Of a stretch of DNA of 64,000 nt, positions 6,422 to 24,976 are shown piece after piece (positions within the stretch are counted from its first letter, which is position 1; each line of letters starts with the position of its first letter). Under the pieces are notes generated by a model. It saw nothing but the letters and a program-made list of their open reading frames with translations. It made no database searches and was not told where the DNA came from. The DNA lies in the NCBI RefSeq assembly GCF_030656255.1, contig NZ_JAUSOE010000104.1, forward strand, positions 1 through 64,000, in the 5' to 3' direction. This DNA is from Brevundimonas sp. GTDB taxonomy: Bacteria; Pseudomonadota; Alphaproteobacteria; Caulobacterales; Caulobacteraceae. Both the position numbers and the translations under genes were made by a program.

Positions 6422-6639
6422 CGCAACGTCAGCATTTTATGTCGCTTCCTTGTCACAGCAGGGGTGAACTGCGGCGAAAAATCGTCGCGGCGAACAACGC
6501 TCGCTTGTACCCCGGGCCGAAGCGGGCTTAGCCTCCGCCATATTGAGCGCGTCTCCACGTAGAGGCGGGCCGAATGGGAACTAGGAAACGCTGCGGTCGC
6601 GCTCCGCGTGACCGGGCTTCAGAGCCGGGAGGACGCTTC

Positions 6640-9264
6640 ATGCGCCACACTAACCGCTATCTTCGGACCACCGTGTCCGCCGCCGTCGTCGGCGCCGCCG
6701 TGTTCGGCTTCGCCGGCATCGCCGCCGCCCAGGATGCGCCCACCAGCGTGGACGACATCATCGTCACCGCCCAGAAGCGCGAACAGAGCCTGCAGGACGT
6801 GCCGATCGTGGTCACGACTCTGTCGCAGGAGGTGCTGGACGGCGCCGGGGTGCAGGACATCAAGGATCTGCAGATCCTGACGCCGGGCATGACCGTCACC
6901 TCGACCCAGTCGGAAGCCTCGACCACGGTCCGCATCCGCGGCGCCGGCACCGTGGGCGACAACCCCGGTCTGGAATCCTCGGTCGGCGTCGTGATCGACG
7001 GCGTCTATCGCTCGCGCAACTCGGTCGGCTTCGGCGACCTGGGCGAACTGAGCCGTATCGAGGTCCTGAAGGGGCCGCAGGGCACCCTGTTCGGCAAGAA
7101 CACCTCGGCAGGCGTCATCAACATCATCACCGAACGCCCGTCGTTCGATCCGTCGGTTTCGGCGGAACTGACCGCCGGCAACTTCGGCGCCATTGGCGGC
7201 TCGGTCTCGGCGACCGGCCCGCTCAGCGACATGATCGCCGGCCGCATCTTCGTGGCGCACCGCGAGCGTGACGGCTTCTATGACGTCAACGTCGGCGACG
7301 GTCCGCGCACCCTGACCGAAGACAACACCCAGGACTACTGGACCGGTCGCGGCCAGCTGCTGATCCTGCCCAGCGACGAGGTGTCGATCCGCCTGATCGC
7401 CGACTACACCAAGCGCGACGAATACTGCTGCTCGGCGGTCCAGACCCGGGTCGGCCCGACCCAGGCCTTCATCGCCGCCCTGACCGCGCCGAACGGCCCC
7501 GGCCAGACGCCCCCGGTCGCCGGTTACGGCACGGTGCCCTTCAGCCGCACCGCCTATTCGAACCGCGAGACGCCTCAAGAGATCGAGGACATGGGCCTGT
7601 CGGCGGAAGCCACCATCGACTTCCCCAGCATCAACGCCACCCTGACGTCGCAGACCTCGTGGCGTGACTGGTCGTTCCAGCAAGGGATGGATCTGGACTA
7701 CACCGGGGCCGATATCCAGCATCGTGAGAACGACGGGTCGAACGGCTACGGCGTCGACAACCTGACCCAGGAATTCCGCCTGGCGGGCACGACGGACAAG
7801 TTCGACTGGCTGGTCGGCCTGTTCGCCACCAAGGAAGGCGTCTATCGCGACGACTCCTATTCTTACGGCGCGGACTACAACGGCTTCGTCTCCTTCCTGC
7901 TGACGGCGACGGTGCCGGCGACCTTCGGCGGCCCCAGCGCGACTCGCACCGGCTGTTTCACCAATCCGCAAGGCTACGCCGTCGGGACCAGCGGCGCCCT
8001 GCTGGGGCAGCCGCTCTGCACCTTGGGCCTGACGGCGCCCAGCGCCTCGGCGCCCCTGTTCGCCACGGGCAAGGCCTATGAGGACCACTATTCCCAGCGG
8101 TCGGAGTCGGTGGCCCTGTTCACCAACAACACCTGGCGGGTGACCGAGGCCTTCGACCTGAACCTGGGCCTGCGCTACACCTACGACAGCAAGCGCCTGC
8201 TCGGCGTGCAGGATAATCTGGGGACCAATGGCGCGGCCTGCGGCGGCGCCCTGGCCAACCAGAATCCGGCCAACCGCCTGCCCGGCACGACGGCGACCCC
8301 GGCGGCCGCCCTTGGCCTGCTCTGCCTGCCCTGGTCGAACCCGCTCTACGACAATCGCCGGATCCAAGAGAAGTTCAGCGACACCGACATCAGCGGCACG
8401 TTCAAGGGCTCGTACCGGTTCAACGACGCCGTCATGGCCTATGCCTCCTATGCGCGGGGCTACAAGGGCGCCGGCTACAACATGGACCGCGTGCAGACGG
8501 GCGTGACGCCTGACGCCTCGCTGTTCTTCGACGCCGAGACGGTGGATAGCTACGAGATCGGGGTGAAGACGACCCTGTTCAATCGCTCGATGCTGCTGAA
8601 CCTCACCTACTTCGACCAGAAGTTCGAGAACTTCCAACTGAACACCTTCCTCGGGACCGCCTTCGTGGTGGAGTCGATCCCCGAACTGACCTCGCGCGGC
8701 GTCGACGCCGACATGGTCTGGTTCACCCCGATCGAGGGCCTGATGTTCCAGGGCGGCGTTACCTACACCGACGCCAAATACGGCGACTTCGGCGCCAACG
8801 ACCTGTCCAACCCGGCGCGCTTCCCGGCCCTGTCCCTGCTGCCGGGCGCCCGCGCCTCGTTCGCTCCGGAATGGTCGCTGACCGGCGCCCTGGCCTTCGA
8901 CCGCTCGCTGGGCGGCGGCCTGCGCGGCGGCTTCAACCTGTCGGCTAAATATTCGACCGACTACAACACCGGCTCGGACCTGCTGCCGTACAAGGACCAG
9001 GAAGCCTTCACCGTCGTCAACGGCCGCATCTCCATCGGCGCCGAAGACGAACGCTGGACGGTCGATATCTGGGCCCAGAACCTGCTGGAAGAGGAATACA
9101 CCCAGGTCGGTTTCGCCGCCCCGCTTCAGGGCACGGCCTTCACCAACACGACCACGCCGCAAGCCGACGGCACCTATTATAATATCGCCACCGACACGGC
9201 GACCTACAACGCCTACCTCGGCGCCCCGCGCACCTGGGGCGTGACGCTGAAGGTCAAATACTGA
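6640..9264 (+). CDS. TonB-dependent receptor 1
   Basis: Outer-membrane active transporter of 874 aa. The start at 6640 has GGGAGG upstream and gives a signal peptide MRHTNRYLRTTVSAAVV...AAAQDA. A TonB box follows (VDDIIVTAQKREQSLQDVPI), then the plug (LQILTPGMTVTS, RIRGAGTVGDNPGLESSVGVVIDGVY, EVLKGPQGTLFGKNTSAGVINIIT) and the beta-barrel. It ends in a terminal Tyr (WGVTLKVKY), as outer-membrane barrels do. The plug wording is that of the sphingomonad/caulobacter group of receptors of unknown ligand. No adjacent gene reveals the substrate. The 3' end and terminator are duplicated 3.57 kb downstream. Confidence 0.93.
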   Translation: MRHTNRYLRTTVSAAVVGAAVFGFAGIAAAQDAPTSVDDIIVTAQKREQSLQDVPIVVTTLSQEVLDGAGVQDIKDLQILTPGMTVTSTQSEASTTVRIRGAGTVGDNPGLESSVGVVIDGVYRSRNSVGFGDLGELSRIEVLKGPQGTLFGKNTSAGVINIITERPSFDPSVSAELTAGNFGAIGGSVSATGPLSDMIAGRIFVAHRERDGFYDVNVGDGPRTLTEDNTQDYWTGRGQLLILPSDEVSIRLIADYTKRDEYCCSAVQTRVGPTQAFIAALTAPNGPGQTPPVAGYGTVPFSRTAYSNRETPQEIEDMGLSAEATIDFPSINATLTSQTSWRDWSFQQGMDLDYTGADIQHRENDGSNGYGVDNLTQEFRLAGTTDKFDWLVGLFATKEGVYRDDSYSYGADYNGFVSFLLTATVPATFGGPSATRTGCFTNPQGYAVGTSGALLGQPLCTLGLTAPSASAPLFATGKAYEDHYSQRSESVALFTNNTWRVTEAFDLNLGLRYTYDSKRLLGVQDNLGTNGAACGGALANQNPANRLPGTTATPAAALGLLCLPWSNPLYDNRRIQEKFSDTDISGTFKGSYRFNDAVMAYASYARGYKGAGYNMDRVQTGVTPDASLFFDAETVDSYEIGVKTTLFNRSMLLNLTYFDQKFENFQLNTFLGTAFVVESIPELTSRGVDADMVWFTPIEGLMFQGGVTYTDAKYGDFGANDLSNPARFPALSLLPGARASFAPEWSLTGALAFDRSLGGGLRGGFNLSAKYSTDYNTGSDLLPYKDQEAFTVVNGRISIGAEDERWTVDIWAQNLLEEEYTQVGFAAPLQGTAFTNTTTPQADGTYYNIATDTATYNAYLGAPRTWGVTLKVKY

Positions 9265-9344
9265 TCGTCCAGCCGCCCGGGCCGTAAGGCTCCAAGGGGG
9301 GAACGACGAAGGGCCGACCGGGCAACCGGTCGGCCCTTTTTCTT
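9216..9344. repeat. Left copy of ~130-bp direct repeat
   Basis: Covers the last 16 codons of receptor 1 plus its terminator. It matches 12782-12911 with four substitutions and one extra G by my alignment. It brackets the 9345-12781 segment that carries receptor 2. Confidence 0.93.
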
Positions 9345-9350
9345 TTTCTT
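9311..9350 (+). terminator. Rho-independent terminator of receptor 1
   Basis: GGGCCGACCGG-GCAA-CCGGTCGGCCC is a perfect 11-bp stem with a GNRA tetraloop. It is followed by TTTTTCTTTTTCTT. Very strong. Confidence 0.95.
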
Positions 9351-9412
9351 AAGATTTTGGCGGATTGGCGCGGGAGGAGATAGTTTATCCTTTTACAGAA
9401 ATTGTTGGGCCA

Positions 9413-9552
9413 TTCACTCTCTTGAGTGGGGTCGCGAGAGTGAAAAATTTCTCGATTTCGAAAGTTTCCAAAATATTACTGTTTTTTCGAAAATGTCGAA
9501 TATGTGGCTTCATTACGACATGTGAGCGATGATTACATTGCTGGAATGTAAT
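9413..9552. promoter_or_regulatory. Dyads in the AT-rich promoter region of receptor 2
   Basis: The 318 bp between the terminator and receptor 2 are clearly AT-richer than the surroundings and hold no gene. Two inverted repeats stand out. TTCACTCTC-N14-GAGAGTGAA lies at 9413-9444, and ATTACATT-N5-AATGTAAT at 9532-9552. The half AATGTAATG recurs at 27427-27435, upstream of receptor 3. They are candidate operators for nutrient-dependent receptor expression, and no regulator can be assigned. Confidence 0.5.
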
Positions 9553-9662
9553 GTGGTCTAGAAAATCATCGGTATGGGGATAACGTCCCCCATCCGCGTG
9601 CACTGGGGGCGCGGACAAACGTGTGGTCGTCGCCAGAGCGTGATCGACCGCCACTATGAAGG

Positions 9663-12600
9663 ATGGGGATTTTGAGAGTTCGTACCATTCGTGAGCGCCT
9701 GCTGACCGGAACCATGGCGGGAGGGGTCGCCCTTGCGGCTCTGGCCGTCATGCCGGTCGTTCTCGCGCCGACGACAGCGCTTGCTCAGTCTCAGACCGGC
9801 GGGCTGCGTATCGCAGTCACCGGCTCGGACAATCAACCGATCGCGGGGGCGACGGTTGTGGTGAGTTCGCCGAGCAGCCTCGTCAGCCGTACTGCGGTCA
9901 CGGACGCTGAGGGGCGTGTCCGCGTCACCGGGCTAGACCCTGCGACCAACTATACGGTATCGGTTGACGCGCCGAATTACAGCAACTTCAGCGCGAGCAA
10001 TGTTGCCATCGTCAGCGGCCGCGACCTGTCAGTCGGTTACAGCCTCGCTGATCGCAGCGGTGCAACGGACCTGGGCGATATCGTCGTCACTGGCACGTCT
10101 CTGGCCGCGATCGATACGACCTCCGCGACAGTCTCTACGATCCTGACGCTGGAGACGGTGGAATCCCTGCCCACAGGCCGCAGCTATCAGAGCTATCTGC
10201 AACTGGTTCCTGGCACCAAGCCCGGCAACAATCCGTCTTCACGTTCCGGCGTGAACTATTCGGACGTTGGCGGGGCCGTCGGCAGTTCGACCGACAACCT
10301 GTATTATCTCGACGGCGTGGATGTGACGGATCCTGTCTCGGGTACTTTCGGCGCCAACTTCAACTCGGAAATCATCCAGGAACAGCAGGTTCTGGTGGGC
10401 GCCATACCGGCGGAATACGCGGGTGGTTCAGGTCTGATCTCACGGGTCATTACCAAGTCGGGATCAAACGAGTGGCACGGCTCCGCGAACTACTACTTCC
10501 AGAACGATACCCTCGTGCAGGAGGATTACCACAACAACTCCGGCGGCTTCTCTACCTATGACGCCGCAGTAACTCTTGGCGGGCCGATCCTGAAAGATCG
10601 CCTGTGGTTCTTCGGTTCTTATCAGAAGAAAAATCGCGAAGACGAAGTGCTGGATCCGACCACCGGCGAAGTACGCCGTACAGTCGAGCAGGATTCCGAA
10701 TATTCGTTTGGAAAGTTGACGTGGCAAGTCAACGAGGAAAACCGCCTGTCCGCTAGCTTCTTCAATGACCCATATGAGACGACCGGTTCGTCGTCGGCCA
10801 CGGTGTTGAACAACCGCGACACGCGCCGTGTTCAGGGTGGTGACAACTACAAGATCGACTATACAGGCGTGTTCGACGATCTGACGGTCAACGCCTACTG
10901 GTTCCGCCACGAGGGCGAGATTTCGGACTACGCCGCCGACACCTCGATCACCGAAAACGTGATCTATGCTTCGGCAGCGGGCTCGACCTTGGCGCAACGC
11001 TCTCTCGGCGGCGCGGGCGGGGACACGATCCGGAACCGCGATCGGGACGAGTACGGCCTCAACGCCGAATACTTCCTAGAGACAGGCTTCGGCACGCACA
11101 CATTTAAGGCGGGCTACACCTTCACCGAAAACTCGACGATGATCGACAGCTCGGTGCCCAACCCGGATCGTTACACCTCACTGGCGGCGCAATATTCGGG
11201 CACGACCTTCGCGACGGCGGTCAGCAGCGCCCCGGCCTGGACTGCGCGTCCGATCGTGGCGGGCGACATGACCCGGCTGATCACGGGCATCACGGCCAAC
11301 GCCACGGCGCTCGCCGCCGTGGATACCAACCGCGACGGCGTGGTCACGTCAGCCGAAGTCAACGCGCTGACCTTCACGAACACCGCCGACAGTCCCTATG
11401 GCAATGTCGCGCTATATCGTGTGAACCGCGTGGCGACGGGCGCCTATGAGGTGAAGAGCGAAGGACAGAGCGTCTATTTGCAAGACACCTGGACCTTGGA
11501 CAAGCTGACCGTAAACGCCGGCGCTCGCGCCGAGAAGTGGACGCACTTCGACTCCAACGGCGAGGAGATCGCCAACTTCGATTGGGAGATCGCCCCGCGC
11601 TTGTCGGTGGTTTATGACCTCTTCGGCGATGGTCGCAGTAAGGTCTTCGGCTATGCTGGGCGCTATTACGACCCTGTCCGCAACAATATGACAGACTTTG
11701 CGGGCGGTTTGACTGGGCCGGTCGATGAAGAGCAGATCAACGTCGCTGGCGAATGGGTCACCTTCCGTACTCGCGGTGGTGCGTCCACTCCGGACGCACT
11801 GTTCTCTCCGAACACGAAGACGCCGTACACCGACGAGTTCCTGATCGGCTATTCGACCACCTTCAGGTCGGATATCGGCTTCTCGGCGACGGTCACGCGG
11901 CGTCAGACGCGCGACATCATGGAAGACTTTGATCTGGCGCTCTACTCGGATCCGAGTTGCACCGCTGAGGACTGCGGCGTGAATGGTTACGCCTACCCTG
12001 GTTCGTTCTTCTACCTGCCGTATTCGTACTTTGGCTACGACAGTGCGCCGAATTCGAACTACGTCATTGGCACCCTGCCGGGTGGCGAGCGGAACTACAC
12101 GGGTCTGGAACTGACACTGACGAAGTACAAGACAGACAATTGGTTTGGCCAGATATCGTACACGTACAACGACGCTGACGGGAACACGAACTCCGACTCG
12201 AACGCCGATTACCAGGGCGACCTCATCTTCCTGGATCCCCGCGCACCCAACGCCTCTGGGCCGCAGCCCGGAAACATCGAACACCAGTTCAAGGCTTATG
12301 CTGGTTATGAGTTCGACTGGGGCCTGGAACTCGCTGGCGTGTTCAACTGGAATTCGGGCTATCTTTATACGCCAGCCCAGCCCGTGGGCGGACGCTACTT
12401 TGCTCCGACGGCTGACCCTTATGAGTTCGGTGGTGTGACCGATACGTGGTATCTGCCAGGCTATATCGGATCCGAAACTGCGCCATCCTATTGGACAATG
12501 GATGTGAAGGCGACTTACACCGTCGACATGCCGTTCGGTAAAACCGAACTGTTCCTGGACGTGTTCAACCTGTTCAACAAGCAATCGGCGACCGGTGTCG

Positions 12601-12698
12601 AGTCGCGTCTCGCCGGTAGCGGTGTGTACGATTACCAGGAAGCCAATTCCTGGGTCTCGCCTCGTCGCGCCGTGCTTGGAGCCCGCTACTCCTTCTGA
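9663..12698 (+). CDS. Oar-like TonB-dependent receptor with carboxypeptidase-regulatory domain
   Basis: A 1011-aa outer-membrane protein of the Oar/OmpA-related TonB receptor type. In order: a signal peptide (AALAVMPVVLAPTTALAQ), a CarboxypepD-reg-like beta-sandwich (residues about 45-125, GLRIAVTGSDNQPIAGATVVV, TDAEGRVRVTGLDPATNYTV), a TonB-box-like DLGDIVVTGTS, a plug (YLDGVDVTDPVSGTFGANF, EYAGGSGLISRVITKSGSN) and a barrel ending RAVLGARYSF. Such receptors are often linked to import of peptides or proteinaceous material, a general family statement. Codon choice is visibly less GC-ending than in receptor 1 or lepA. With the flanking duplication this suggests later acquisition. The start is ATG 9663, and TTG 9672 is an alternative. 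Confidence 0.9.
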   Translation: MGILRVRTIRERLLTGTMAGGVALAALAVMPVVLAPTTALAQSQTGGLRIAVTGSDNQPIAGATVVVSSPSSLVSRTAVTDAEGRVRVTGLDPATNYTVSVDAPNYSNFSASNVAIVSGRDLSVGYSLADRSGATDLGDIVVTGTSLAAIDTTSATVSTILTLETVESLPTGRSYQSYLQLVPGTKPGNNPSSRSGVNYSDVGGAVGSSTDNLYYLDGVDVTDPVSGTFGANFNSEIIQEQQVLVGAIPAEYAGGSGLISRVITKSGSNEWHGSANYYFQNDTLVQEDYHNNSGGFSTYDAAVTLGGPILKDRLWFFGSYQKKNREDEVLDPTTGEVRRTVEQDSEYSFGKLTWQVNEENRLSASFFNDPYETTGSSSATVLNNRDTRRVQGGDNYKIDYTGVFDDLTVNAYWFRHEGEISDYAADTSITENVIYASAAGSTLAQRSLGGAGGDTIRNRDRDEYGLNAEYFLETGFGTHTFKAGYTFTENSTMIDSSVPNPDRYTSLAAQYSGTTFATAVSSAPAWTARPIVAGDMTRLITGITANATALAAVDTNRDGVVTSAEVNALTFTNTADSPYGNVALYRVNRVATGAYEVKSEGQSVYLQDTWTLDKLTVNAGARAEKWTHFDSNGEEIANFDWEIAPRLSVVYDLFGDGRSKVFGYAGRYYDPVRNNMTDFAGGLTGPVDEEQINVAGEWVTFRTRGGASTPDALFSPNTKTPYTDEFLIGYSTTFRSDIGFSATVTRRQTRDIMEDFDLALYSDPSCTAEDCGVNGYAYPGSFFYLPYSYFGYDSAPNSNYVIGTLPGGERNYTGLELTLTKYKTDNWFGQISYTYNDADGNTNSDSNADYQGDLIFLDPRAPNASGPQPGNIEHQFKAYAGYEFDWGLELAGVFNWNSGYLYTPAQPVGGRYFAPTADPYEFGGVTDTWYLPGYIGSETAPSYWTMDVKATYTVDMPFGKTELFLDVFNLFNKQSATGVESRLAGSGVYDYQEANSWVSPRRAVLGARYSF

Positions 12699-12728
12699 GT
12701 GGGCCTGATCTTCGAGCGAGCAAGGGGG

Positions 12729-12762
12729 AATGCCGGCGCGAAAGCGCCGGCATTCTGCTTTT
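12729..12762 (+). terminator. Terminator of receptor 2
   Basis: AATGCCGGCGC-GAAA-GCGCCGGCATT is a perfect 11-bp stem with a GAAA loop. It is followed by CTGCTTTT and lies 30 bp after the stop codon. Confidence 0.92.
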
Positions 12763-12781
12763 AGCCTCTGAGTATTAACGG

Positions 12782-12830
12782 CCTCGGCGCCCCGCGCACC
12801 TGTGGCGTGACGCTGAAGGTCAAATACTGA
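12782..12830 (+). pseudogene. Remnant of a second copy of the receptor 1 C-terminus
   Basis: Translates to LGAPRTCGVTLKVKY-stop, identical to the last 15 residues of receptor 1 except Trp to Cys. There is no start or upstream reading frame, so this is a fragment, not a gene. Confidence 0.9.
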
Positions 12831-12877
12831 TCGTCCAGCCGCCCAGGCCGTAAGGCTCAAAGGGGGGGAACGACGAA

Positions 12878-12911
12878 GGGCCGACCGGGAAACCGGTCGG
12901 CCCTTTTTCTT
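12878..12911 (+). terminator. Duplicated terminator
   Basis: GGGCCGACCGG-GAAA-CCGGTCGGCCC plus TTTTTCTT. This is the same hairpin as at 9311, with GCAA changed to GAAA, so the GNRA loop is kept. It now stands without its own gene, 180 bp after receptor 2. Confidence 0.9.
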
Positions 12912-12978
12912 GGGTGATGCGGGAGGGCGGGAACGTCTGGTCTCAGTCGGCTTTCGACCCTTTGAGGAAGTTGCAACG

Positions 12979-13212
12979 TCAGAACATCGCCTGCAGAATC
13001 GCCTGCAGAATTGTGACGAAGATCGTCACCACAGCCGCCACGAGCAAACTCCCCCCAAGTACTGCCGTGAGCCAAATTGCAATGACCAGAGTGATGGCTG
13101 GCGCCCGCAACCAGGAAGGCAGCCCTTTGATGGCAGAGAAACGCCGATCAACCGCAGGCTGGGTGAGGTGGCCGGCGATCTCGAGAGATGCCATCAGGAC
13201 GAACTGAAACAT
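12979..13212 (-). CDS. Small membrane protein, unknown
   Basis: A 77-aa protein beginning MFQFVLMASLEIAGHL. It has a charged middle and two closely spaced hydrophobic stretches (APAITLVIAIWLTAVLGG, SLLVAAVVTIFVTILQAIL). I chose ATG 13212 over the track start (13269) because GAGGAG sits 5-10 nt upstream of it. Not recognised. It is either a small inner-membrane protein or a hydrophobic peptide of regulatory kind. It stands alone, just right of the duplicated terminator. Confidence 0.6.
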   Translation of the reverse strand: MFQFVLMASLEIAGHLTQPAVDRRFSAIKGLPSWLRAPAITLVIAIWLTAVLGGSLLVAAVVTIFVTILQAILQAMF

Positions 13213-13519
13213 GATTTCTCCTCGTCGGCATCGCGCGTAAAAACGGTCACCAGACCTAATGCCGAGCATGTAACTGTAAGTCCACTAACCACCCCTAGCT
13301 GACATCGACCGCGACCGCTTTCCGGCCTGGAGGCCAACGTCCGCTTTCGGCCTCGAAGACCAGGACCGAAATCGACCCAAAGGCGACGCCTGCGAAGTCC
13401 GCTTGCGGCTTGTGCCTCGCAACTCGGCTATCGGCACTAAGCCGATGACCGCATTCCACCCCCGGGCCTACACACCGTCTTTCATGCTCGCGCCAACCAG
13501 TCGCCGCAGGCCCTGGCAT
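13213..13519. other. Intergenic stretch without a recognisable gene
   Basis: About 307 bp between two minus-strand genes. Imperfect purine-poor repeats around GTCCGCTT (at 13341, 13396 and 14205) are visible. No convincing ORF, RNA gene or strong hairpin was found. Confidence 0.5.
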
Positions 13520-14110
13520 CTACTGCGGCGTGGCGGGCTGATCAGCGGAAGTTTCAGCCGCGTGACGGGCCTCCTCGGCGGCGCGGGTCGAGACGTTCAG
13601 AACCTTCCTAATGCTGTCGGGAATGAGCGCGTGGTCGAAGGGTTCGCGGGTCGGCCGCTCTCCCCGGCGCACCAGGGTCTGGGTGCCGTATATCTGGGGC
13701 TGCCCGATTTTCTGAAGGTATCGGTCCAGGGTTGCCGCCGCGAGCCAAGGCGACTCGGTCGAACCTTCACCCAAGGCGGCCACGGCGAGGGTGTGGGCCA
13801 TGAGGTAGTCCTGTGCCGTATCACCGTGCTGATAGACTAAGGCGGCGGCATAGAAGTCCGCTGCGGTGCGCAGGGCTCCGGCGTCCAGCAGGGCCTTGAC
13901 CTGCGCCCGACGGACGGCGTCCTCAGCGTGCAGGCGCACCGCGTTTTCTCGACCACCAGCCAGAATGGCCGCAAAGTCCTGACGGACGGCCTGATCGGCG
14001 GCCAGGATCGCAGCCATCTCCGTGTTGTCCGACATGGAGACCGAGTCCTGGGACGCCGCCGGCATAGCGATAGCAAGAGCCATGGCGGTCGCAATCAGCA
14101 GCGGCTTCAT
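13520..14110 (-). CDS. Exported protein resembling DUF6624 family
   Basis: A 196-aa periplasmic protein. The start at ATG 14110 (MKPLLIATAMALAIAMPAASQDS) has GAGG 6 nt upstream and gives a clean signal peptide ending AAS-Q. The C-terminal half contains DFYAAALVYQHGDTAQDYLMAHTLAVAALGEG and LDRYLQKIGQPQIYGTQTLV. Its GQPQIYGTQ signature is the hallmark I associate with DUF6624-like proteins. No catalytic function is known. It lies downstream of the RND operon on the same strand, separated from it by a strong hairpin, so it is probably transcribed separately. Confidence 0.7.
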   Translation of the reverse strand: MKPLLIATAMALAIAMPAASQDSVSMSDNTEMAAILAADQAVRQDFAAILAGGRENAVRLHAEDAVRRAQVKALLDAGALRTAADFYAAALVYQHGDTAQDYLMAHTLAVAALGEGSTESPWLAAATLDRYLQKIGQPQIYGTQTLVRRGERPTREPFDHALIPDSIRKVLNVSTRAAEEARHAAETSADQPATPQ

Positions 14111-14217
14111 TTCCATCCTCACACATCCATCCACGCCGCGACGATGACGAGGACGCGAGACGCGATCAAATGAACTAAAGTTCAGCCGTGAGCACTCGGG
14201 CAAATGTCCGCTTCCCA

Positions 14218-14260: not shown

Positions 14261-17200
14261 TCACTCCACCAACGGCCCTTGCCTCGGCTTGGCCAGCTCC
14301 CGCTGCCCCGCCGTCGACCGGCGCAGGATACGCCGCGCCCACTGGGCCACGTCGTCGACGATGGTGAAGATGGCCGGGATGTAGAGCAGGGACAGGAAGG
14401 TCGAGGAGATCAGTCCCCCCAGCACCGCGATGGCCATGGGCGAGCGGAACTGGACGTCGGCCCCGATGCCCATGGCGATGGGCACCATGCCGGCGCCCAT
14501 GGCGAAGGTGGTCATCAGGATGGGGCGGGCGCGCTTGTGCGCCGCGTCCATGATGGCCTCGTAACGCGGCATCCCGTCCTTCTCGGCCATGATGACATAG
14601 TCGACCAGCAGGATGGAGTTCTTGGCCGCGATCCCCATCAGCATCAGCACCCCGATCAGGGCCGACATGGAGAAGTTGGCGCCGCCGATGGCCAGGGCGA
14701 TGAAGGCGCCCCCGATGGCCAGGGGCAGGGCCGCCATGATGGTGATCGGATAGGCGAAGCTTTTGAACAGCAGGGTCAGAACCGCATACATCAGCAGGAT
14801 GCCGGAGGCGAAGGCGACGCCGAAGCCGGTCAGCATTTCCTGGATGAACTCCGTGTCGCCGGCCGGCACCTGGCGCACGCCGGCAGGCAGGGCCTTGACG
14901 GAGGGCAGTTGGTTGACCGCGATGCCCGCCGCGCCGGTGGTGATCCCGTCCAGTTCGGCGCTGATCGAGGCGATGCGCGACCGGTCCTGGCGGGACACGG
15001 TGGCCGGACCGGCGCCGAACTCGATGTCGGCGACGGCGCTCAACGGCACCGAGGCGCCGTTGTTGCCGGGAACGCGCAGGGTCTTCAGCACGCTCAGGTC
15101 CTGGCGCGCCTCTTCCGTCAGCTGAAGCCGGATCGGGATCTGGCGGTCGCCCAGATTGTATTTGGGCAGGTTTTGATCGACGTCGCCGATGGTGGAGACC
15201 CGGACCGCCTGGGAGATGGTGCTGGCCGAAACCCCGGCCAGGGCGGCTTCGTCCGGACGGGGCGTGACCAGGATTTCCGGACGCGCGATGGCGGCCGAGT
15301 TGACGACGTTGGCCAGACCCGGAACGCCGCGCATCTCTTCTTCCACCTTGCGCGCTGCTGCTGTCAGGGCGACGGGATCGTCGCTCAGGATCGAGAAGGT
15401 GTAGCTGGTGCCGTCGCCCGGACCGCCGCCCGACTGGGCGATGCCGGCGCGAATGCGCGCGCCGGGAATCTGCTTCATTTCGTCGACCATGACCCGCGCA
15501 AAGGCCTGCTGGCTCAGCTCGCGGTCGCCCTTGGGCACCATGTCGGCATAGATGTAGGCTTGGGTCACGTCCTGGCCGCCGATGGCGGCATAGACGGAGG
15601 TGACTTCGGGGCGGGCCTCCAGCTGGCCGGTGATCCGCTGCACCACGGCGTCGGTCTGGCCCAGGGTCGAACCCGGCGGCAGTTCGACCTGGAAGGACGC
15701 GCGCGCCGTGTCGCCCGGCGACATGAACTCGAACGACATCTTGGCCACGACGGAGGTCGCGATCGATCCGACCAGGAACAGGATGCCGATGATGAAGACC
15801 TTCCACCGATTGCTCAGCGACCAGCGCAGGGCCTTCAGATAGCCGCTCATCCAGAACGGATCGCGATCCTCGTGGTGGGTGTGTTTCAGGATGAAGGCCG
15901 CCATCAGCGGCGTCAGGGTCCGCGCCACCAGCAGCGAGAAGGCCACGGAGACGCAGGCCGCCAGGGCGAAGGCTTTGAAGAACTGGCCGATGATGCCCGG
16001 CATGAAGCCGACCGGAGCGAAGACGGCGATGATGGTGGCGGTGGTCGCCACGACCGCCAGGCCGATCTCGTCGGCCGCCTCCAGCGAGGCGTCATAGGGC
16101 GGTTTGCCGTCGCGCATGTGGCGGACGATGTTCTCGATCTCCACGATGGCGTCGTCGACCAGGATGCCGATGGTCAATGACAGGGCCAGCAGGGTCACGA
16201 CGTTCAGCGACTGGTCCAGCGGACCCAGGATGGCGAAGGTCGGGATCAGCGACATCGGCATCGCCGTCGCCGCGATCAGGGTGGCGCGCCAGTCGCGCAG
16301 GAAGATGAAGACGATGATGACCGCCAGGACGGCGCCCAGCAGCAGGGCCTCCAGCGAGGCCAGATAGGATTCCTCGATCTCCTCGACGCTGGCGTTGACC
16401 TGGCTGATCGTCAGCTCGGGATGGGCCTCGTCGATCTTTTTGACCTCTTCGCGGACCTTCTCGGCGACCTTGACCTCGGACGCCGTGCGCGAGCGCAGGA
16501 AGTTGAAGGTCACGGCCTCTTGCCCGTTGTAGCGGGCCAGGGTGCGCGGCTCGCTCCACTTGTCCTCGACCGTGCCCAGATTATCCAGACGCACGGTCTT
16601 GCCGTCGCCCAGCGGCACCAGGGTCTCGCGCAGCTGCGCGAGCGAGGTGGCGGCGCCCAGGGTGCGGACGGCGCGCTCGGCCCCGGCGATGGTGACGCGA
16701 CCGCCGGGCAGGTTGTTGTTGACGTTGTTCAGGGCCTGGCTGACTTCGGCTGCGGTGACGCCGTAGGCGGCGAGCCGCTGCGGATCCAGCTCGACCCGCA
16801 TCTCGCGATCCACCCCGCCCGAGCGGTTGACCTCGCCCACGCCGCCGAGGGCCAGCAGGGCGCGGCTCATCTCGTTGTCGATGAACCAGCTGATCTGTTC
16901 CGGCGTCATGGTCGGTGAACGGACCACATAGGTGATCAGGGCGTCGCCGGTGATGTCGACGCGCTGGACCGTCGGCTCCTGCATGTCCTGAGGCAGGCTG
17001 GCGCGCACGCCGCTCATGGCGTTGCGAACGTCGTTGGTCGCGCGCTCGGTGTCCGTGCCCAGCTCGAATTCGATACTGGTCGAGGAGACGCCGTCGGTGA
17101 CGCTGGAATAGATGTGTCGCACGCCGGACAGGCCGGCGATGGAATCCTCGATCAGCCGCGTGACCTGAACTTCCATTTCCGCCGGGGCCGCGCCGGGCCG

Positions 17201-17353
17201 GGAGGCCGTGACCGAGACCAGCGGGAAGTCAATGTCGGGGTTCTCATTGATCCGCATCCCCGTGAAGCCGACCACGCCGCCGAGCGTCAGCAGCAGGAAC
17301 AGCAGGATGATCGGAATCGGGTTCTTGATCGCCCAGGACGACATCTGGTTCAT
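14261..17353 (-). CDS. RND multidrug efflux permease, HAE1-like
   Basis: Inner-membrane proton-driven exporter of 1030 aa, the normal length for AcrB/MexF-like pumps. It has an N-terminal helix (IPIILLFLLLTLGGVVGFTG), porter-domain motifs (ENPDIDFPLVSVTASRPGAAPAEME) and two bundles of membrane helices. The proton-relay region SLTIGILVDDAIVEIENIVRHMRDG contains the paired Asp of TM4. GLISSTFLSLLYIPAIF closes the second bundle. It is the second gene of an operon with the adaptor (9-nt gap). No outer-membrane TolC-like channel is nearby, so one must come from elsewhere. Substrate unknown. Confidence 0.93.
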   Translation of the reverse strand: MNQMSSWAIKNPIPIILLFLLLTLGGVVGFTGMRINENPDIDFPLVSVTASRPGAAPAEMEVQVTRLIEDSIAGLSGVRHIYSSVTDGVSSTSIEFELGTDTERATNDVRNAMSGVRASLPQDMQEPTVQRVDITGDALITYVVRSPTMTPEQISWFIDNEMSRALLALGGVGEVNRSGGVDREMRVELDPQRLAAYGVTAAEVSQALNNVNNNLPGGRVTIAGAERAVRTLGAATSLAQLRETLVPLGDGKTVRLDNLGTVEDKWSEPRTLARYNGQEAVTFNFLRSRTASEVKVAEKVREEVKKIDEAHPELTISQVNASVEEIEESYLASLEALLLGAVLAVIIVFIFLRDWRATLIAATAMPMSLIPTFAILGPLDQSLNVVTLLALSLTIGILVDDAIVEIENIVRHMRDGKPPYDASLEAADEIGLAVVATTATIIAVFAPVGFMPGIIGQFFKAFALAACVSVAFSLLVARTLTPLMAAFILKHTHHEDRDPFWMSGYLKALRWSLSNRWKVFIIGILFLVGSIATSVVAKMSFEFMSPGDTARASFQVELPPGSTLGQTDAVVQRITGQLEARPEVTSVYAAIGGQDVTQAYIYADMVPKGDRELSQQAFARVMVDEMKQIPGARIRAGIAQSGGGPGDGTSYTFSILSDDPVALTAAARKVEEEMRGVPGLANVVNSAAIARPEILVTPRPDEAALAGVSASTISQAVRVSTIGDVDQNLPKYNLGDRQIPIRLQLTEEARQDLSVLKTLRVPGNNGASVPLSAVADIEFGAGPATVSRQDRSRIASISAELDGITTGAAGIAVNQLPSVKALPAGVRQVPAGDTEFIQEMLTGFGVAFASGILLMYAVLTLLFKSFAYPITIMAALPLAIGGAFIALAIGGANFSMSALIGVLMLMGIAAKNSILLVDYVIMAEKDGMPRYEAIMDAAHKRARPILMTTFAMGAGMVPIAMGIGADVQFRSPMAIAVLGGLISSTFLSLLYIPAIFTIVDDVAQWARRILRRSTAGQRELAKPRQGPLVE

Positions 17354-23287: not shown

Positions 23288-23521
23288 GATCAGAACGGCG
23301 ATGAAGGCCTAGGGCCTGACCCACGCCGCCATGGCCGTCGAAATGGAGATCAGCCGCACTCAACTAAACCGCTTCTCCGATCAGGAGGCGTTGAGCGTAA
23401 ATGCCGGATCCCCCCGAGCCGTGTAACGCGGGTGTTGGCCACTCGCGGAAGTTGGAGTTGTTTTAAGCGCCGCTTAGATGTGATGGCTTCCAGAATCGGC
23501 TTCAATCCAACCGGAGACGGC

Positions 23522-24976
23522 ATGAAAAAGCGTAAAGCCAAATCACGCAGAGAACCGCTTTCACGAATGAAGGTGGAGAAGGGAAAAATCCCATCTCCTT
23601 GGAATGCCCTAGATAAGATAGCGCCTACCAATTCAGTCTCGTGGTATCACGACCATCTTCCCGACTACCTCTGGCTCGTCCTGCTAACTCGAGCGAAATA
23701 TCGAACGCAGACTTTTGTGGCGTTCAGAGCTGTTCTGGATGTTCTTCATGACAACCGGCAGCAAAACGGTCTGATCGGTTTCAGCCATCAACGGCTAGCC
23801 GATCTAGATATCAATCTATTCGATTCCATTTTCGCTCCAATACTAGCAATCAAAGAATTGAGAGAGGCGTTGCGGCCCCTCGCTGTACTTGATCAACTGC
23901 CTGGTGCGGACCGTTGGCGAGCGAAGCTCGGAGAGGGGGAGAAAGGTGACAACGATCTTATTGAAGCTGCGGTCGCAGAAGCAGCCCCTCAGAATTCTCG
24001 ACCGGCGACTGATATTGCCTTTTTGATGCTAGTCAACTTGATCGTCCAAGACAGAATGTCGTTCAACGCGGGCCTTCTCAATCCTGCGGATCTTGATGCT
24101 TACGCCTTCAATCCGGACTCGGTGCCCAATATTTCTGGCTTGGCGCGATCAATGAGGAACGGTTGGTTAAATCACGACCGGGAAGAGGCTGGCCATAACC
24201 GTGACTGGGTAGACTTCTTCTATAATTGGGGAAGAGAAAGCTCCGTATGTCGCGGGATTTACATCAGTTCGGATGACGACAGTTCCAGCTATGAGGATGG
24301 CGCGCGACGCATAATGGCTCAAATCGTCGAGATACGCGATTGTTGCGCACGTCGGCTGACCGCGGATTTTCAGGCGTCCGGTTACAACGAACAGCGTGAG
24401 GTGTTGGCGGCGCTTGGCCTGTATGCCACAGACATAGCGATATCGGCCGGAATATCGGGGTCTGCGTCCCACGCTCAAGGGGCGATATTGGTGCGATCGC
24501 TAGCTGAAATTAATATCCTGATTAGTCACATCATCAAAGATAACACAGCTGTGGGACGGTACAGATCTTATGGAGCTGGTCGGGCGCGTCTCCTCGCAGA
24601 GAAAGCCGATGAAATCGGAATTTCAGCTAACTACCTATTTGTGGAAGAACTTGAAAACGTTTCAAATGAAAGGCGGGCTGCGATGTTTATCGATATGCCA
24701 GTCAACGCCTTCTACAAGAAAAGCGTAAGAGATACAGCGATCGAGTGTGGTGCAAAAGATGTTTACGATACCTACTATGACGTAGGGTCAATGTATGCGC
24801 ACGCAGAATGGGGAGGTGTAGCAACGTCATCTGTGCAAATGTGCGGAAATCCCCTTCATCTTGGTCATTACATACCGTCTGAGCGTTTGTTCGCAGTTGA
24901 AATGCTAAAAGACGTTGAGTGGCTTGTTAAGAGAATCGCGACCGAACTTGGGGTTGGTTCGACAGCAGAAATTTAG
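23522..24976 (+). CDS. DUF5677-like protein of unknown function, AT-rich
   Basis: A 484-aa soluble protein starting at ATG 23522 (MKKRKAKSRRE, GGAG upstream). The track start at 23432 lacks support. The N-terminal part has PWNALDKIAPTNSVSWYHDHLPDYLWLVLL. The C-terminal part has the helical pattern I associate with DUF5677 (SHAQGAILVRSLAEINILISHII, then YDTYYDVGSMYAHAEWGG with the Tyr...Ser...His set). Codon use and base composition are clearly more AT-rich than in neighbouring lepA and uvrB, indicating recent transfer. It converges on uvrB with 1 bp between the stops. Function unknown. Similar proteins occur as isolated cargo genes in variable regions. Confidence 0.65.
   Translation: MKKRKAKSRREPLSRMKVEKGKIPSPWNALDKIAPTNSVSWYHDHLPDYLWLVLLTRAKYRTQTFVAFRAVLDVLHDNRQQNGLIGFSHQRLADLDINLFDSIFAPILAIKELREALRPLAVLDQLPGADRWRAKLGEGEKGDNDLIEAAVAEAAPQNSRPATDIAFLMLVNLIVQDRMSFNAGLLNPADLDAYAFNPDSVPNISGLARSMRNGWLNHDREEAGHNRDWVDFFYNWGRESSVCRGIYISSDDDSSSYEDGARRIMAQIVEIRDCCARRLTADFQASGYNEQREVLAALGLYATDIAISAGISGSASHAQGAILVRSLAEINILISHIIKDNTAVGRYRSYGAGRARLLAEKADEIGISANYLFVEELENVSNERRAAMFIDMPVNAFYKKSVRDTAIECGAKDVYDTYYDVGSMYAHAEWGGVATSSVQMCGNPLHLGHYIPSERLFAVEMLKDVEWLVKRIATELGVGSTAEI

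Follow-up and report, generated by a model that had tools for sequence, protein, structure and literature searches.

TonB-dependent receptors set what Gram-negative bacteria take up, and phages and bacteriocins commonly enter through them. In the 64,000-nucleotide stretch of a Brevundimonas genome analysed here (the window), two such receptor genes follow one another on the forward strand, and the end of the first occurs twice, once where that gene stops and once more behind the second. How did receptor 2 come to stand between two copies of its neighbour's tail? An earlier sequence-only reading had offered two histories: either an ancestral tandem copy of receptor 1 was overwritten by an incoming gene through homologous recombination at the shared ends, or the insertion itself duplicated the 3' end. 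In both cases, receptor 2 was regarded as a swappable cassette. We examined these proposals by comparison with related genomes.

The end of receptor 1 is duplicated

Receptor 1 (6574..9264, plus strand), a TonB-dependent receptor with Plug and beta-barrel domains (PF07715, PF00593), is the recipient neighbour and is kept at this place in the nearest relatives. Its final 48 coding bases, its stop codon and its 3' UTR with the terminator form the left copy of a 130-bp direct repeat (9216..9344, plus strand), for which a two-stem terminator fold is predicted with z = -5.5. The right copy (12782..12911, plus strand) is the truncated tail of receptor 1 with its terminator, and it runs on into the ancestral downstream flank. 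Between the left copy (129 nt) and the right copy (130 nt), 125 of the 130 aligned columns are identical (96%); the differences are four substitutions and one inserted G, the longest identical run is 41 nt, and the two-stem fold is retained in both. Outside the copies, the DNA on either side is unrelated. Such a repeat is far beyond chance, and alignment and whole-genome search bear out the duplication of about 96% that had been read from the letters. The same search, made with the repeat block, hit only two places in the genome, at 100% and 96%, which rules out a widespread dispersed repeat. Rfam gave only sub-threshold matches to terminator hairpins for a known RNA within the repeat. Among 131 Brevundimonas genomes, a second copy of the receptor 1 tail occurs in the window's genome and in none of the 130 others.

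The insert reads as a complete receptor unit

Between the two copies, positions 9345-12781 make up one transcription unit, with an operator-like motif, a receptor gene and a terminator of its own. Receptor 2 (9663..12698, plus strand; 1011 aa as an ATG open reading frame) carries PF13620 at residues 50-124, PF07715 at 154-255 and a PF25183 barrel; that is, an N-terminal carboxypeptidase regulatory-like domain, a plug and a large beta-barrel. In domain order and size it resembles the Oar-like TonB-dependent receptors (OMP_b-brl_4 with CarboxypepD_reg); unlike these, it lies by itself at a new site, as a full transcription unit. The true start is probably the TTG at 9672, because alignments with orthologues begin at residue 3-4 and AAGGA lies upstream. 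The terminator of receptor 2 (12725..12766, plus strand; AATGCCGGCGCGAAAGCGCCGGCATT-T) is kept in most orthologues.

The leader (9345..9662, plus strand) is essentially unmatched in the 131 genomes, where only matches of 20-38 bp were found. By eye, it shares with the leaders of orthologues the motif GTGGC-N5-(T/A)CGACA ... ATTACA-N-TGTAAT (the first part also given as GTGGC-N5-TGCGACA). In its strict form, all three matches in the 12 genomes searched precede a receptor of the receptor 2 type, and the controls gave 0; the window copy is spaced differently and falls outside this strict form.

Less GC-biased codons and an AT-rich promoter had been taken as marks of the incoming gene. Both are real: GC3 is 0.739 and GC 0.597 in receptor 2 vs 0.897 and 0.665 in receptor 1, and GC is 0.45 at 9300-9599. 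However, the lower GC bias is partly a family trait, with GC3 of 0.75-0.90 in the orthologues and GC of 0.50-0.63 in their upstream regions vs 0.64-0.71 in their flanks. Because the orthologues are also lower in GC than their flanks, composition by itself says little about a foreign origin. The argument for an insertion rests on the empty sites.

The insert does not look like a transposon or an integron cassette. On the coding strand, no open reading frame of recombinase size was found besides the receptor, and the long minus-strand frames are antisense to it. The terminator pair is the sole inverted pair joining the two ends of the insert; an attachment site was likewise not seen, in a search that used no dedicated integron attachment-site model.

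The site is empty in the nearest relatives

Five related genomes (G027, G028, G067, G023 and G045) show the order receptor 1, one repeat copy, a short variable stretch and the same AcrB-type gene; in the window, this right-hand marker of the empty site is the conserved RND transporter at 14261..17353 (minus strand, PF00873). The final 845 bp of receptor 1 are 90-94% identical between the window and these genomes, and receptor 2 was not found anywhere in the five at the cut-off used. The left repeat copy is continuous with the ancestral receptor 1 side. In the variable intergenic stretch behind the right copy (12912..14217), the first ~40 bp agree with the DNA just after the single copy in G023 and G027, so the right copy lies on the ancestral downstream side. 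The comparison, made with one genome per species and a draft assembly for the window, supports receptor 2 as a lineage-specific insertion. The earlier reading had proposed to look for strains with one repeat copy and without receptor 2, and had taken both receptors, both repeats and matching codon use in all relatives as evidence against it; the nearest relatives do have one copy and no receptor 2, and their flanking genes are those of the window.

Each close relative has 0.8-1.3 kb of largely different DNA in the interval from the receptor 1 terminator to the AcrB gene (window 12912-14217; L051-L054, L057). This interval is a second variable spot, with a different small open reading frame in most close relatives. 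In the window, a 77-aa small membrane-protein frame (12979-13212, minus strand) lies directly behind the right repeat and has no NCBIfam match.

Receptor 2 belongs to a Brevundimonas family

Orthologues of receptor 2 occur in 15 other Brevundimonas genomes at 62-70% identity. The DNA homology with them spans the gene and its terminator only. Outside the genus, homologues at 61-63% were found in one sister genus, and the other sampled members of the class gave no match at the cut-off used. A donor was not found, the best identity being 70%, and no record in the plasmid and viral collections carries the gene. In the protein tree, receptor 2 groups inside the family of receptors that occupy a slot beside metH (cluster 1), on a long branch of 0.44. 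By identity and grouping (at least 50%, within cluster 1) it is a member of that family, although it lies behind receptor 1 and not between the metallo-hydrolase gene and fam4/metH.

In three genomes (G127, G061 and G126; L065-L067), the orthologue lies near uvrC, and the receptor type in their metH slot is the one that the window's genome has there. In G022, the orthologue is also outside the slot and is broken by a stop.

How the insertion may have arisen

We propose a single additive insertion of 9345-12781 in which the receptor 1 3' end was copied, preferably through break repair or template switching, and we rate this reading as slightly more likely than not. After the lineage had split from its closest sampled relatives, a complete receptor transcription unit would have been placed directly behind the receptor 1 terminator, and its source may have been an unsampled Brevundimonas holding a member of the metH-slot family. 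A staggered break near the terminator hairpin could have been repaired, or the template switched there, with re-entry 130 bp upstream, thus leaving the 130-bp end of receptor 1 on both sides. The duplication would most likely have been made by the insertion itself, without an earlier tandem. This is the second of the two histories put forward earlier, and it fits the observations. Ku is present in the window's genome, and the stretch just past the terminator, which differs among the nearest relatives, suggests a recurrent breakpoint. No microhomology that would identify a route was found at the repeat junctions.

The main rival is Campbell-type integration, in which a ~3.57 kb circle of the insert plus the 130-bp tail entered by one crossover at the receptor 1 end and could leave again as the same circle. 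It predicts the full gene, the insert, a truncated gene end and the flank in this order, as observed, and the shared segment is indeed directly repeated on either side of the insert. There is a close parallel in the HFIR study of Escherichia coli, where 56 of 60 integrants had the additive layout by PCR, and where sequenced integrants had 109-950 bp of the gene end duplicated, an outcome ascribed to a shortened circle that entered by a single crossover (PMC3240628). There too, the full gene lies on one side of the insert and a truncated 3' piece on the other, and 130 bp falls within 109-950 bp; unlike those integrants, the window event is natural, its circular intermediate is hypothetical and a donor-borne tail is not known. 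However, the circle must already have been joined to the receptor 1 tail, while in the genomes with both genes (G127, G061, G126 and G022) these lie far apart or on different contigs, and plasmid and viral records lack the gene. We regard integration of such a circle as rather unlikely. Break repair or template switching and a circle crossover give the same layout and are inseparable from one sequence.

The divergence of the two copies bears on a further possibility, a tail that came with the donor. In this case, receptor 1, receptor 2 and the tail already stood in this order in a related species and arrived by homologous transfer. With 4 substitutions and 1 indel between them, the copies are about as distant from one another as each is from G027, which such a transfer would allow. 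The right copy agrees with G027 and G028 at two sites (CTCAAAGG; GGGAAACC) where the left copy differs; three other changes are private to the right copy, among them a W-to-C change in its dead reading frame. Yet a transfer merely shifts the original event to another lineage, and no genome with this arrangement is among the 131; we consider it improbable. For the insertion, the 4 substitutions in 129 between the copies vs 0.15 at four-fold sites between receptor 1 and its G027 counterpart suggest a younger event. We claim no date for the duplication, because this block has only ~3 differences from G027.

The overwritten tandem, the other history of the sequence-only reading, does lead one to expect a bare 3' end, the tail being all that remains of a second receptor 1. 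It found no support, however, as none of the 131 genomes has a tandem receptor 1. Receptor 2 also ends with a C-terminus and terminator of its own, and the receptor 1 tail starts mid-gene ~15-20 bp beyond; the right-hand join therefore lies outside any homology and is not a crossover in shared receptor ends. This makes the history quite improbable. Lastly, an assembly artefact in the 170-contig draft is very improbable, since the insertion lies well within one contig of 68 kb, five differences separate the copies, and the left and right flanks both match the same relatives at ~90-93% identity.

Receptors are swapped at a slot beside metH

In ten genomes, the receptor 2 orthologue lies between the metallo-hydrolase gene and the small secreted-protein gene fam4, adjoining metH. 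The window's genome has this slot on contig C167 (L103:1271-6823), occupied by another TonB receptor (L103:1965-5093). We surveyed the slot in about 80 Brevundimonas genomes (other loci L058-L064, L069, L070 and L104-L186). Most hold one receptor-size gene, some two and a few none; at a threshold of 50% identity, on which the clusters hinge, the occupants in about 75 genomes fall into about ten non-orthologous receptor types, and Pfam identifies representatives of nine of these as TonB receptors. When the types are placed on a tree of MBL and MetH, the flanking proteins (76 rows), they require at least 41 changes, a parsimony count on a quick tree of linked genes, vs 43-50 (mean 47.7) for shuffled labels. 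The receptor types are thus scattered almost at random over the flank tree.

In G000, G027 and G028, identity of 87-92% extends to both edges of the slot, and the DNA between the edges is unrelated; the left edge lies at the stop codon of a small open reading frame. G004 and G081 have slot flanks that are mostly 97-100% identical, and their receptor types differ. The metH slot is a swap site where related species exchange unrelated receptors. Conserved flanks enclosing non-orthologous genes in close relatives are also the mark of replacement flexible genomic islands (PMC4033161), and the slot resembles these in that unrelated surface-protein genes are replaced between conserved flanks, a pattern that exchange by homologous recombination in the flanks would be expected to give. 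The slot differs in holding one receptor gene of ~3-4 kb, sometimes two, in place of a large gene cluster, and the window event is unlike such islands in being an addition, not a replacement (PMC4033161). The notion of a swappable cassette is a fair one for the family, with swapping seen at the metH slot, but it was not seen at the window site. There, the repeats through which the earlier reading expected loss of receptor 2 share at most 41 bp of perfect identity. We found no direct link of the ends of the window insert to the slot flanks; nor did duplicated tails emerge as a general signature of two-receptor slots, which gave just matches between related receptor genes. Nothing specific on receptor swapping in Caulobacterales was found in the literature.

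Two tandem pairs were seen in the slot region. G058 (L070) has two paralogues of the receptor 2 type, and G069 (L058) has the receptor 2 type with another Oar-like receptor.

Possible consequences

If both receptors are expressed, as we infer, the cell has probably gained a further uptake specificity under separate regulation while keeping receptor 1; the added receptor may perhaps alter the target for phages or bacteriocins. More broadly, and tentatively, Brevundimonas might maintain a pool of complete single-receptor units that circulate among species by homologous exchange at the metH slot and occasionally land behind other receptor genes, the duplicated end marking one such jump and permitting its reversal; we rate this generalization as possible but on the unlikely side. 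If true, it would amount to a receptor cassette system without a recombinase. A swap locus with near-identical flanks, together with a scarred addition elsewhere, offers a tractable system for receptor exchange without mobile elements.

The most atypical gene of the window is a different one: it encodes a 514-aa DUF5677 protein (23432-24976; GC 0.50, GC3 0.50) and adjoins uvrB.
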